This document shows, in pieces, positions 28,200 to 32,559 of a stretch of DNA of 64,000 nt. The stretch is from a virus. Position 1 is the first letter of the stretch. The number at the start of each line of letters is the position of its first letter. Position numbers and translations under genes: made by a program. The notes below the pieces were generated by a model. The model was not told the DNA's origin and ran no database searches. It worked only from the letters and a program-made list of their open reading frames with translations. The stretch spans positions 1-64,000 of the IMG/VR virus record IMGVR_UViG_3300020469_000041; one strand, 5' to 3'.

Positions 28200-28790
28200 A
28201 TGGCAAGTTTATTTGATACACTACAAGCACAAGCATTTAGAGCTGGCGTTTCTCCTCGCACGAAGGAATCACAGCAATGGTTTCAGCGTAATGTTAAGAA
28301 GTTAGCTGATGTAAATAGAAGATCTGTACTGAAAGATGATGCATTAGATCCTACTACAAAGCCAAGAGTTGGTGATATGATTATGTATTTCTATGATCCA
28401 AAGCATAAAGCAACATTACCATACTATGATAGATTTCCTCTTACGATTATGGTCGAACCAGCACCTGGTGGATTCTATGGATTGAATCTACATTACCTAT
28501 CACCGGGTGTACGTGCAAGATTCCTTGACGAGCTCATGAAGTTAGGCCCAAGCAAGGTTGGTGAAACATCACGCTTGGCAAGATTACGATATAAGACTCT
28601 TGCAAGTGTAAGGAAATTCAAAGAATTCGAACCGTGTTATAAGCATTATCTAATGCCTCATGTTAAATCAAAGATGGTAAGAGTCCCAATGACTGAATGG
28701 GAAATTGCTATCTTCTTACCAACAGAGCAATTTGTAAAAGTCAAAGCAGCTTCTGTATGGAGATACTCAAGGAAACAATACGCATCATGA
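28200..28790 (+). CDS. Conserved phage assembly/structural protein of unknown function
   Basis: 196 residues. Features include K-P-R-V-G-D-M-I-M-Y-F-Y-D-P-K near residue 58, Y-D-R-F-P-L-T-I-M-V near residue 80 and G-F-Y-G-L-N-L-H-Y-L-S-P near residue 95, then basic C-terminal segments. It sits between gp4 and the tail-tube-fold protein, in a head/tail completion region, and is expressed from its own late promoter. I do not recognise a T4 homologue with confidence. DNA end protector gp2 is one candidate by neighbourhood only. No catalytic motif is seen. Confidence 0.8.
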   Translation: MASLFDTLQAQAFRAGVSPRTKESQQWFQRNVKKLADVNRRSVLKDDALDPTTKPRVGDMIMYFYDPKHKATLPYYDRFPLTIMVEPAPGGFYGLNLHYLSPGVRARFLDELMKLGPSKVGETSRLARLRYKTLASVRKFKEFEPCYKHYLMPHVKSKMVRVPMTEWEIAIFLPTEQFVKVKAASVWRYSRKQYAS

Positions 28791-29449
28791 ACAGCATAGA
28801 TAACCTCAAGTCAGTGATATCTAAGAAAGGCGGAGTTGCAATGCAAAATCGCTTTCAGGTATTTTTTACACCTCCTTCTGCAAATAGCTTAAAATCATTA
28901 CTTAACACCGATACAAGATCATTAGTTGGTGATCTTGCAAAAAACGCAATTACTGGTGGAAGTATAAAGAATCTTATACCAGATCCACGTGATATATCGA
29001 TATTATGTGAGTCAGTAAGTCTACCAGGACGAGCAATTACAACTCTTGATTACATAGCTGAAAGACAAGCAATTAAGATACCATACAGTGTAATTAATGA
29101 AGATATTACCATGACATTCATATTAACAAATGATTACTTTATAAAGAAGTTATTTGATTCATGGCTGACTAGTATTTTCGATGTTGAAAACTATAGAGCA
29201 GGTTATAAGAAAGACTTTACGTGTGATATTATCATACAACAACTAAATGAACAAAATATTCCAGTTTACGGTGTGAAACTAGAAGGTGCATTCCCCATCA
29301 CCGTCAATGCAATAAACATGGACAACAACGCAGAAAATACTGTCCAGAAAATGAGTGTGACAATGAGTTACGAAAACTATGTACCAGAAGATATATTTGA
29401 TAGCGTTAAATCAGCTGTCACTTCTGCTGCTGGTGCCCTTGGTATTTAA
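28787..29449 (+). CDS. Tail-tube-fold baseplate protein (gp54/gp19-like)
   Basis: 220 residues from the ATG at 28787, which overlaps the previous stop (ATGA) and has AAGGAAA upstream. A longer in-frame start 30 codons earlier lies inside the previous gene and is not used. Motifs S-I-L-C-E-S-V-S-L-P-G-R near residue 80, then D-I-T-M-T-F-I-L-T-N-D-Y-F and late M-S-V-T-M-S-Y-E-N-Y are typical of the phage tail-tube fold shared by gp19, gp48 and gp54. A role as tube initiator (gp54) is my preferred reading from position before gp26. Confidence 0.75.
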   Translation: MNSIDNLKSVISKKGGVAMQNRFQVFFTPPSANSLKSLLNTDTRSLVGDLAKNAITGGSIKNLIPDPRDISILCESVSLPGRAITTLDYIAERQAIKIPYSVINEDITMTFILTNDYFIKKLFDSWLTSIFDVENYRAGYKKDFTCDIIIQQLNEQNIPVYGVKLEGAFPITVNAINMDNNAENTVQKMSVTMSYENYVPEDIFDSVKSAVTSAAGALGI

Positions 29450-29468
29450 TATAATATAGGAGAATATA

Positions 29469-30173
29469 ATGGCGTTACCAAAAATAAGTGTTCCACGGTA
29501 TGATGTAGAATTACCATCTACCGGTAAAACATTAAAGATGAGACCTTATCTAGTTAAAGAAGAAAAGGTTTTAATGATTGCATTAGAGTCTAGTGATCCT
29601 GGACAAATTGCAAATGCTGTAAGAAGCGTTATTCAAGAATGTTACAGTTTAGATGATGTTAATAGTCTAACTACATTTGATATAGAATATCTATTTTTAC
29701 AACTAAGAGGAAAGTCTGTAGGTGAAGAAATGGAACTACAGATTAAATGTGAACACTGTGAAGAGTTAAATCCTCTACACATAAATGTAAATGATATTAA
29801 AATAACTAACGTTAATGAAGATCACAAAATTGTAATGCTAACTGATAAAATTGGTGTTAAAATGCGATGGCCATCGGTTAAAACATTTAGTGAATTAAAT
29901 GTTGAAAAATTAAATTCTGTAGAAGGTTTAATGGATCTTATTATTGAGTGCATTGAAAGTATATTTGATGATGACGCAGTATATGATAATACACAAACAA
30001 GTAAAGAGGAAATGGAAGGATTTATAGAAAATCTTAACTCTTCGCAGTTTAAGAAAGTTCAAGCTTTCTTTCAAGATATGCCTATTGTTGAATATACGCA
30101 CGATATGATATGTAGTAGTTGTGGTGAAAAAAGTAAAATAGAGCTAAGAGGACTACAAAGTTTTTTTTCGTAG
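29469..30173 (+). CDS. 26: Baseplate hub / tail assembly chaperone gp26
   Basis: 234 residues. L-P-S-T-G-K-T-L-K-M-R-P-Y at residues 15-27, two CxxC pairs (C-E-H-C near 95, C-S-S-C-G-E-K near 218) and overall pattern fit the T4 baseplate protein family that includes gp26. The gene ends Q-S-F-F-S at a run of eight T (30161-30168). Directly after it, in the -1 frame, is a conserved-looking gp51-like stretch with no start codon. This recalls the frameshifting chaperone pair that precedes tape-measure genes in other tailed phages. AGGAG lies 8 nt before the ATG. Confidence 0.85.
   Translation: MALPKISVPRYDVELPSTGKTLKMRPYLVKEEKVLMIALESSDPGQIANAVRSVIQECYSLDDVNSLTTFDIEYLFLQLRGKSVGEEMELQIKCEHCEELNPLHINVNDIKITNVNEDHKIVMLTDKIGVKMRWPSVKTFSELNVEKLNSVEGLMDLIIECIESIFDDDAVYDNTQTSKEEMEGFIENLNSSQFKKVQAFFQDMPIVEYTHDMICSSCGEKSKIELRGLQSFFS
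30161..30168 (+). promoter_or_regulatory. Candidate -1 ribosomal frameshift site (T8)
   Basis: In the gp26 frame the ribosome reads AGT TTT TTT TCG TAG. The heptamer T TTT TTT allows P- and A-site tRNAs to re-pair one base back, continuing TTC GTA GGC into the gp51-like frame. The 0-frame stop is only one codon past the slip. Confidence 0.65.
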
Positions 30174-30355
30174 GCCTTTCACATGAGAGTTTAGTTAATT
30201 ATTATAAGACTAATTTTGCATTAATACAGCATCACAAATATAGTTTAACTGAGCTGGAAAATATGTTACCGTGGGAAAGGCAGATATATGTTAGCCTATT
30301 ACAGCAACATATTGAAGACGAAAACGAAAAGATTAAACAAAGGAAAACAAGATGA
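30167..30355 (+). CDS. 51: gp51-like hub assembly extension (via -1 frameshift from gp26)
   Basis: 62 codons in the -1 frame relative to gp26, reading F-V-G-L-S-H-E-S-L-V-N-Y-Y-K and later M-L-P-W-E-R-Q-I-Y. That compact helical peptide style matches gp51-type hub chaperones that follow gp26. The frame is open from 30137 but has no ATG, GTG or TTG before the Met of M-L-P-W, so most of it can be translated only by frameshifting, giving a 295-residue fusion. Its TGA overlaps the next ATG. Confidence 0.65.
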   Translation, partial: FVGLSHESLVNYYKTNFALIQHHKYSLTELENMLPWERQIYVSLLQQHIEDENEKIKQRKTR

Positions 30356-30675
30356 CAGAAGAAATAAAAGCAAGTGGACATCATCCAGCTGATACCAATG
30401 GTGATGGCAAGGTAAGTAGAAAAGAGCAAGATATGTATATGGAGTTTAAAAGAAAAGAACTCGAAGATGCAGATGCAATGCGAGATGCACAGCGTAAAAT
30501 GGCATGGTTCTCTTTATTTGGTATGTTACTATATCCATTCTCTGTCGTGCTAGCAAGCTTATTTGGGTTAGATGAAGCACAAAAAACATTAGGTAGTATG
30601 GCACCAACATACTTTGTTGCTGTTGCTGGTATCGTAGCAGCATTCTTTGGTGCACAGGCATTCAGTAAAAAATAG
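30352..30675 (+). CDS. EF-hand membrane protein in the tail operon
   Basis: 107 residues. Residues 14-25 form a complete 12-residue calcium loop (D14, N16, D18, K20, S22, E25). A charged helix (26-48) and two hydrophobic segments (about 49-70 and 84-102) follow. It overlaps the gp51-like frame by ATGA and sits 9 nt before the putative tape-measure gene. No family name is recognised. A membrane-acting tail component, or a holin-like protein gated by calcium, are both conceivable. Location in the tail operon favours the former. Confidence 0.8.
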   Translation: MTEEIKASGHHPADTNGDGKVSRKEQDMYMEFKRKELEDADAMRDAQRKMAWFSLFGMLLYPFSVVLASLFGLDEAQKTLGSMAPTYFVAVAGIVAAFFGAQAFSKK

Positions 30676-30684
30676 GAATAAATC

Positions 30685-32559
30685 ATGGCAGACGATAATT
30701 CAATAAACTTTCAAGAACTAATAAACTTAATGGCCGAAAATAATCGGTCTACAGTCGAAATTGAACGTGATGGTCGTAATACTCGTCGTCATCTTTTAGA
30801 AATGAAAAAACTACAAACTACTGCCCTTGAAACATCAAAAAATATGACAGCAATATTTGATAACTTTTTCGAATCTATGGATGCAAGTGCTTTACAAAAA
30901 GCTGAAACAGAAATGGAAAGAGCTTCTATATTTGAAGAAATTAGAGATTCTCTTAATGATGGTATACAAGTAGAAAATACAAGTAGCAATAGCTCTGGCA
31001 GTGGCAGTGGCATGATTAGCAAGCTTGGTGGTATGATGGGCGGAGCTGCTATGGCCGCTGGCGCATTACTTGCGGGTGTGGGTATAGGTGCAGCTGGTCT
31101 TACATATGCTATGGGCAAGATGGAAGAGCTAGACACTAAGAAGATTAAAGAAAACGTTGATGATCTATTGTCAATGGCCGAATCTGATAGAATGACTGTA
31201 GGTAATGTTGCGGCTGTAACTGCAACAATGACTGCATTAGGCGTTGGCTTAGCTGCATTTACTATAGGCGAAGGCGCATCAAAAGCTGTTGCTAAATTCT
31301 CTGAAGGTAGTGACTGGCCACAAGATATTAAAGATAACGTAGAAACATTATTATCTATTGGTGATATACCAGGCATGGGTGGAAATGCAGCAGCTGTAAG
31401 CTTAACATTAACTGGTCTAGGAGTTGGACTAGCCGCTTTTGGTATAGGTAAAGCTGCAGACGGTGTTGGTACTGCAATATCATCATTTAGTGAAGGTAAC
31501 TTTGCTGATAACATTAAGAAAGAAGTAGAGACTCTACTATCGATAGATACTGGTAAAGACGGCCAAGTTGGTGACTTTATGAAAACTATGTCTGGCTTAG
31601 GTTTAGGCTTAGCAGCATTTGGCATAGGTAAAGCTGTTGGTGGTACGGGTGATGCTATTACAAAGTTCTCCAGCGGTGATAACTTTGCACAAGGTATTAA
31701 AGACGAAGTAGAGACACTGTTATCTATTGATACAACATCAGGTATAGACGTAGAAAACTTTAAAAAGACACTAGGCGGATTAGGAGTTGGCTTAGCTGCA
31801 TTTGGTATAGGTTCATTCTTTGCTAGTGGAGATGGTGTTGCTGATGGAGTTAAGAAAGAAGTAGAAACATTATTAACCATTGGCGATGGCGCTGATATGG
31901 ACAGAACACTAGCAGCTACTGGATCTCTTGCTGCACTAGGTGTTGGTCTTACTGCATTCGGCGCTGGTAAAGGTGTCAATGCTCTTGCTGACCTAGGGTC
32001 TTCTATTGTTGGATTCTTTACTGGATCTAAGAGTCCTGTAGAACAAGCAATTGAAGTAGGTGAAAAGGCTGATACAATTCAAGCTGGTGCAGATGCATTT
32101 AGTGCTTTTGCTGATGTATTTCAACGAATGAGTGAAATGGGTAATATATCACTTGATTTAGATGATGCTATAGAAGAAATGGTTGAGTATTCTAAAGTGT
32201 TAGAAACTGTATTACAAGGTGGTAAAATTACTATCGGTAAAAACTTTAAAACTGATGGTTTAGCAAATTTAACAGAAGACGTTGACAAAGCAGTATCTAA
32301 TATTAATCGTGTTCGTGATGTATTACAATTGCAATCAGACAATGGTGCTGATGTTCAAGGCACAGATAATAAACAAGGTGATAAAGTTATTCACTTATCA
32401 GCTGAAAACATAGAATTAAGATTACCAGAAAATAATCAATCTGCGGGTGAAAATATTACTTTAGCAAGCGCTAATAATAGTAAACAATCTAATGTAAATG
32501 TTATACAAACTGCGCCTATTAATAGAATCAATGCGACCGCAGCGGGTGCATACGCATAA
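30685..32559 (+). CDS. Putative tail tape-measure protein built from 60-residue repeats
   Basis: 624 residues. After a coiled N-terminal part (1-100) and a Ser/Gly linker, residues ~157-450 hold five tandem repeats of almost exactly 60 residues, each with E-V-E-T-L-L-S-I and L-G-V-G-L-A-A-F-G-I-G (the latter at about 185, 245, 305, 366 and 418). The repeats are Gly/Ala-rich and hydrophobic. Position after gp26/gp51 and length close to T4 gp29 (590) suggest the tape measure, which sets tail length and may insert in the membrane. Direct similarity to gp29 is not obvious, so this is inference. Confidence 0.7.
   Translation: MADDNSINFQELINLMAENNRSTVEIERDGRNTRRHLLEMKKLQTTALETSKNMTAIFDNFFESMDASALQKAETEMERASIFEEIRDSLNDGIQVENTSSNSSGSGSGMISKLGGMMGGAAMAAGALLAGVGIGAAGLTYAMGKMEELDTKKIKENVDDLLSMAESDRMTVGNVAAVTATMTALGVGLAAFTIGEGASKAVAKFSEGSDWPQDIKDNVETLLSIGDIPGMGGNAAAVSLTLTGLGVGLAAFGIGKAADGVGTAISSFSEGNFADNIKKEVETLLSIDTGKDGQVGDFMKTMSGLGLGLAAFGIGKAVGGTGDAITKFSSGDNFAQGIKDEVETLLSIDTTSGIDVENFKKTLGGLGVGLAAFGIGSFFASGDGVADGVKKEVETLLTIGDGADMDRTLAATGSLAALGVGLTAFGAGKGVNALADLGSSIVGFFTGSKSPVEQAIEVGEKADTIQAGADAFSAFADVFQRMSEMGNISLDLDDAIEEMVEYSKVLETVLQGGKITIGKNFKTDGLANLTEDVDKAVSNINRVRDVLQLQSDNGADVQGTDNKQGDKVIHLSAENIELRLPENNQSAGENITLASANNSKQSNVNVIQTAPINRINATAAGAYA

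Follow-up and report, generated by a model that had tools for sequence, protein, structure and literature searches.

One gene of a marine T4-like bacterial virus almost certainly yields both a short and a long tail assembly chaperone through a -1 slip

The gp26 locus and its reading frames

The window, that is, the whole stretch of DNA analysed here, comprises positions 1-64000 of the 67.4-kb IMG/VR virus record IMGVR_UViG_3300020469_000041, which may be a fragment and which holds a single gp26-like gene within its 67.4 kb; a second, long gp26-like gene may lie elsewhere in the genome. The following features lie at and around that gene.

29469..30173, + strand: TAC-N, putative gp26-like tail assembly chaperone (TAC), short form, 234 aa (PF12322, phrog_150, AlphaFold model)
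30147..30152, + strand: Shine-Dalgarno-like AGAGGA, 8 nt 5' of the heptamer, possible frameshift stimulator, weakly suggested by anti-SD pairing
30161..30167, + strand: slippery heptamer T TTT TTT within T8 (30161-30168), codons AGT TTT TTT (direct reading; register conservation)
30167..30355, + strand: TAC-C, predicted -1 frame extension with a gp51-like domain, 62 aa plus stop (phrog_634, phrog_150, pN/pS, alignment)
30171..30173, + strand: gp26 stop TAG, one codon past the slip site (direct reading)
30176..30189, + strand: small hairpin CUUUC-ACAU-GAGAG, 8 nt 3' of the heptamer, possible stimulator, weak in the window, with one G-U pair
30352..30675, + strand: 107-aa ORF with an EF-hand-like loop and two hydrophobic stretches
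30685..32559, + strand: presumed tape measure protein, 624 aa (position; relatives' ORFs at the same place)

By direct reading, the 3' end of gp26 runs CAA AGT TTT TTT TCG TAG (AGT beginning at 30159, TAG at 30171), and T TTT TTT sits in the register that a tandem -1 slip requires. Between 30137 and 30355 the -1 frame is open from stop to stop, with its TGA at 30353-30355. After a -1 slip the codons would be TTC GTA GGC CTT TCA..., and the protein would continue F-V-G-L-S-H-E-S-L-V-N-Y-Y-K.... The first ATG, GTG or TTG of this frame in the window is the ATG at 30263, which lies inside a conserved block and leaves only 30 aa. The predicted fusion comprises 233 + 62 = 295 residues. On all these points the sequence bears out an earlier note on this DNA, which had described a slippery T8 with T TTT TTT at the end of gp26, a slip one codon before the gp26 stop, a -1 frame without a start codon until well inside it and a fusion of ~295 residues.

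The same note had placed the pair just before the tape measure gene. The presumed tape measure ORF does lie downstream, with the 107-aa ORF intervening; the start ATG of the latter at 30352 overlaps the TAC-C TGA (ATGA). In close relatives gp26 and TAC-C precede tape-measure-like genes, and in HTVC008M and Melnitz the ORFs in the tape measure position have matches to tape measure families (E 3.6e-12 and 2.1e-8). The window's own 624-aa ORF gave no family match in PHROG and Pfam profile searches.

The EF-hand-like loop of the 107-aa ORF reads DTNGDGKVSRKE and is followed by the two hydrophobic stretches. This ORF is present in 54 of the 80 IMG/VR loci found with the window query and has homologues in Melnitz (79%) and HTVC008M (64%), being absent from the other annotated relatives; phrog_27150, a family of unknown function, is matched by the copy in HTVC008M (E 2e-4). 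On the 5' side of gp26, an ORF at 28697-29449 has weak tail tube family matches (PF06841 gp19, E 9e-5, below the cut-off), and the HTVC008M ORF at the equivalent place is labelled a putative baseplate tail tube initiator.

Conservation of the slip site

Four IMG/VR scans (80, 80, 2 and 15 loci), 25 annotated phage regions and the window gave 203 loci, a survey skewed to marine phages because its queries were skewed in the same way. The gp26 stop can be read in 202 of these, one contig ending before it. A T TTT TTN heptamer is found in register in 181 of the 202, its first full codon 2-4 codons 5' of the gp26 stop, and in 80 of 80 loci of the window's own clade. The 21 loci that do not have it are T4, Vibrio K397, Aeromonas phiA8-29 and 18 loci of Ackermannviridae type. 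The -1 frame stays open for at least 120 nt beyond the gp26 stop in 201 of the 202 loci, T4 among them, although there the open frame belongs to gene 25 and not to TAC-C; the one exception is cut by its contig end.

Counted as distinct contexts, 146 of 163 have the heptamer, and since these relatives are not independent we attach no p-value to its conservation. The first Phe codon of the heptamer is TTT in 146/146 contexts, compared with 1057 TTT to 468 TTC elsewhere in gp26, and the codon preceding the slip codons ends in T in every one of the 146. Judged from these alignments, the slip site is conserved beyond chance and synonymous constraint acts on the slip codons. The earlier note had proposed aligning relatives to see whether T8 and the frame relation are kept. 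Register and frame relation are; the T-run itself varies in length from 6 to 8 and reads T8, T7A or T6C by lineage.

All 18 Ackermannviridae-type loci keep TAC-C in the -1 frame without the tandem heptamer, and all carry ATTTTCAT[TC]TAA at the junction. The Kuttervirus-type loci among them lack an ATG at the gp26 stop, so these may shift by slippage of a single tRNA on T TTC.

Selection on the extension and start codons in its frame

By its substitution pattern, the -1 region is under protein-level purifying selection. With 46 distinct relatives each compared with the window, pN/pS is 0.17 in the -1 frame versus 1.07 and 2.93 in the other two frames, and substitutions fall 347/144/852 at -1 frame codon positions 1/2/3. 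Among the distinct loci of the window's clade the -1 frame contains a stop in 0 of 47, and each of the other frames in 47 of 47. Profile matches link the -1 segment to phrog_634 ('baseplate hub assembly catalyst') at E 2e-28 and also to columns 237-280 of phrog_150, the family of gp26 itself. In the alignment, conservation of the first part of TAC-C, which in the window precedes every start codon of this frame, can be recognised as far out as Straboviridae and Rhizobium phages.

The earlier note had set a normal start codon for the second frame in relatives against frameshifting, an objection that largely fails. In the window's clade, no ATG precedes stop+53 in this frame (from the 50 distinct contexts grouped under the window query), and an internal TTG stands at stop+20 in 25 of the 50. 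Further afield an ATG does occur close to the stop: at stop+2 in 2 of the 50 (AF3 and T4, both distant) and in 3 of 4 Val-type contexts, at stop+5 with nothing earlier in 37 of 92 cyanophage-type contexts, and in general at stop+2 to stop+14 in many cyanophages and in Vibrio and Rhizobium relatives. Six loci combine the heptamer with a -1 frame ATG at stop+2 or stop+5 (TAATG, TGATG, TAAGTATG). Given these ATGs, free TAC-C by reinitiation is possible in such relatives, though not in the window, and lineages with both heptamer and ATG could make it alongside the fusion.

Predicted fold of gp26 and its relation to T4 gp26 and gp51

The gp26 protein matches PF12322 T4_baseplate (E 7e-66, 222 bits, curated cut-off 24.5) and phrog_150 (E 3e-70, 238 bits). 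Its AlphaFold2 model, built with 73 sequences, has a pLDDT of 91.0 and a pTM of 0.83. By VIA-align, model residues 1-93 match 3fgx (Z 7.8, rmsd 3.6 over 84), 3klu YqbN (Z 7.3, rmsd 3.9 over 84), the HK97 tail assembly chaperone 2ob9 (Z 7.2, rmsd 3.6 over 82) and 5ir0 (Z 5.2, rmsd 4.4 over 80); the first unrelated protein after these ranks at Z 3.5. The solved structures matched at Z 7.2-7.8 are HK97 gp13, YqbN and rbstp2171, and the relevant passage of PMC9603447 terms 2ob9, 3klu and 3fgx phage tail assembly chaperones. As the Z values stay below 8, the fold match is supportive and is not proof of homology. Plain Foldseek with the gp26 model gave no row with E < 0.001, and searching PDB sequences with profiles of gp26 and of TAC-C gave no convincing match. 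VIA-align of a T4-type gp51 model returned no TAC row and no Z >= 5, so the TAC fold match is that of the gp26 model alone.

In the gp26 model two CxxC knuckles, CEHC near residue 94 and CSSC near residue 215, sit at the turns of two beta hairpins. Similar CxxC pairs occur in T4 gp26 and gp51; cyanophages have CPDD and NPxT at those places, and a zinc site may have been lost.

T4 gp51 spans phrog_150 columns 13-280 (E 1e-87), that is, the gp26 part plus the extension, and T4 gp26 spans columns 14-235. With hhalign, T4 gp51 is matched by the gp26 profile at E 2.6e-5 and by the TAC-C profile at E 1.1e-4. The T4-type gp51 model (pLDDT 92.1) has an order of elements similar to that of gp26, plus three C-terminal helices. 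T4 gp51 is an in-frame long paralogue of gp26, and these profile spans and models indicate that in T4 each of the two forms, short and long, has its own gene, gp26 being TAC-N and gp51 a gp26-like part with a TAC-C domain. Unlike in the window, the two are separate genes on opposite strands, and T4 gp26 has no slippery heptamer. Frameshifting appears to be the means by which most of the other T4-like groups examined encode the two forms. A published abstract reportedly states that several T4-like groups retain the frameshift and that in T4 the genes concerned are 26 and 51; our results agree with this, and the phrog_150 and hhalign matches independently support the equation with genes 26 and 51. 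The modelled fold match to HK97 gp13-type chaperones and the in-frame T4 gp51 paralogue together support a chaperone role for gp26.

Comparison with known frameshifted chaperones

Frameshift pairs are known from phage lambda (G/GT), HK97 (gp13/14) and P2 (E/E+E'), and the gp26/"gp51" of the window is a TAC-N/TAC-NC pair of the lambda G/GT type. Its slip site is poly-T, in contrast to the G GGA AAG of lambda. The N-terminal fold of gp26 matches HK97 gp13, but the window protein is about twice as long and has a second, beta-rich part.

Vladimirov, Gautam and Davidson (Virology 2022) identified the TAC genes of T4-like phages, as related in the passages of two papers that cite them. PMC10885494 there describes T4-like phages with one short and one long fusion gene, and PMC12846349 poly-T -1 signals in TAC-N genes. 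Going by these passages, those genes resemble the window's in giving short and long chaperones with a poly-T -1 site in TAC-N; the window differs in representing an uncultivated marine lineage, its gp26 being at most 86% identical to any of 80 IMG/VR relatives among the matches listed. The part of PMC12846349 on Pakpunavirus Adele and the Vandenendeviridae likewise reports a -1 frameshift, at GTTTTT, with the -1 frame open in all genomes and the TAC extension misannotated as a separate hypothetical gene. These phages belong to another family, and their likeness to the window is by description only. In the light of the citing passages, the earlier note's remark that no T4-like case was established is out of date. 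The finding in the window is sound and, so far as these passages go, of a kind already known: the frameshifted TAC is real, well conserved and has precedent in T4-like phages. Our literature search, which covered sources other than the full text of the 2022 paper, met no description in pelagiphages or cyanophages by name, and we make no claim that one is absent from print.

Other explanations for the split gene

Homopolymers such as T8 are error-prone in some sequencing chemistries, and a sequencing or assembly error could in principle have split one long gene. We exclude this reading, which the earlier note had also raised as an error removing one T: 79 other IMG/VR contigs of the clade keep the same frame relation, the isolates HTVC008M, Melnitz, P-SSM2 and syn9 share it, and the stand-alone gp26 of T4 stops at the same column of the family. 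A T8 run is also long enough to be slippery for some RNA polymerases, which could add or remove a base so that the long form arises by normal translation. Relatives with only T6 followed by C have the same register, however, and the constraint is on codon register and not on run length, which favours tandem tRNA slippage on X XXY YYZ; polymerase slippage is scarcely credible and we reject it.

We likewise reject, as very unlikely, the reading of TAC-C as a separate protein made by termination-reinitiation or from a non-standard start. Several relatives do have a -1 frame ATG that overlaps the gp26 stop or lies just past it, and the GenBank regions fetched annotate a separate CDS and never a joined one: of the 21 loci measured, 20 have an annotated downstream CDS that begins in the -1 frame between stop+2 and stop+56. 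The window, though, has no such start, and the starts annotated at stop+50 to +56 (in Melnitz, HTVC008M, S-RIM8, syn9 and others) remove the conserved first part of the domain, several annotated starts deleting its first third. The heptamer is moreover retained even where an ATG is present, as is often the case in distant cyanophages. It is also unlikely that gp26 and its extension are structural parts of the baseplate hub, whose stoichiometry the frameshift would set in place of tape measure coating. This is what the PHROG and Pfam family names imply, and older T4 work, as cited in a passage of PMC3004832, puts gp26 in the hub; yet that same review counts gp26 and gp51 among the hub assembly chaperones and describes gp51 as missing from the particle, and the N-terminal part of gp26 is predicted to have a TAC fold.

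Possible frameshift stimulators

Anti-SD pairing peaks 8-10 nt upstream of the slip site, with a mean of -6.1 kcal/mol at 8 nt versus -5.1 under synonymous resampling (135 contexts); because the SD-like stretch is mostly fixed by conserved [ERK]-G-L residues, this argues only weakly for a stimulator. Downstream RNA folds better than synonymous resampling in the window's clade (mean z -1.9 over 8 codons, n=40) and in cyanophages (mean z -2.0 over 13 codons, n=88; -0.9 over 8 codons), and not clearly better in six other sequences (mean z 0.1 and -0.7). The window's own downstream fold ranks 17 and 41 of 100 against synonymous resampling, which is not significant, and its 81 nt fold no better than shuffles (z 0.29). 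RNAalifold on 83 cyanophage sequences gave no consensus structure.

Covariation in the clade's hairpin is marginal. One of its five pairs varies with standard pairs, and the score, from 30 chosen of the 80 clade loci, is matched by 15 of 500 shuffles and lies little above slid controls. Fisher's p is 0.03 for 29 of 32 distinct contexts (3 GAT/GAC contexts left out), uncorrected for relatedness.

The slip site is well supported, and stimulators are a possible and reasonable addition. We suggest tentatively, and with more doubt than confidence, that marine T4-like phages carry a dnaX-like cassette of three parts, an SD-like stretch ~8-10 nt 5', an invariant T TTT TT[TC] and a lineage-specific stem-loop (for example GGTCC-ATAT-GGACC, GTATGGCTCA...TGAGTCATAC or CTCTC-NCAT-GAGAG). 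The stem-loop would be fast-changing, begin a few nt past the heptamer and be written in TAC-C codons. Lineages keeping an ATG at the gp26 stop may make free TAC-C too, and on this view stimulation in the window would be weak and its T-run longer.

A model for two chaperones from one gene

The programmed -1 frameshift that the earlier note had proposed as joining gp26 to a gp51-like extension is strongly supported by its frame, its slip site and the missing start codon, and by conservation and selection. It is highly probable that one gene gives two tail assembly chaperones, TAC-N and TAC-NC, via a -1 slip on T TTT TTT. Most ribosomes would terminate at 30171 and release TAC-N (gp26, 234 aa); a minority would slip back by one as two Phe-tRNAs re-pair on T TTT TTT, and their product, TAC-NC (295 aa), would carry the additional, helical TAC-C domain. 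That slippage takes place in the cell, how efficient it is, and that the window's pair acts as chaperones are inferred. By analogy with lambda gpG/gpGT, many copies of TAC-N and few of TAC-NC would coat the tape measure protein, TAC-C would bring in tail tube protein for the tube to polymerise to its correct length, and both forms would then leave.

Implications for annotation and tail length control

In many cyanophage and pelagiphage records the second half of this gene is either left unannotated or entered, in truncated form, as an independent 'baseplate hub assembly catalyst', and none of the annotated phage records fetched has a CDS joined across the slip site; joining the two frames correctly would mend that annotation. 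The switch in T4 from frameshift to gene duplication becomes testable in laboratory phages. The finding would also mean that uncultivated ocean phages obey the lambda rule for tail length control, to which a 2016 recoding review, in the passage that describes G-T frameshifting as conserved in long-tailed phages 'except T4', listed T4 as the exception.
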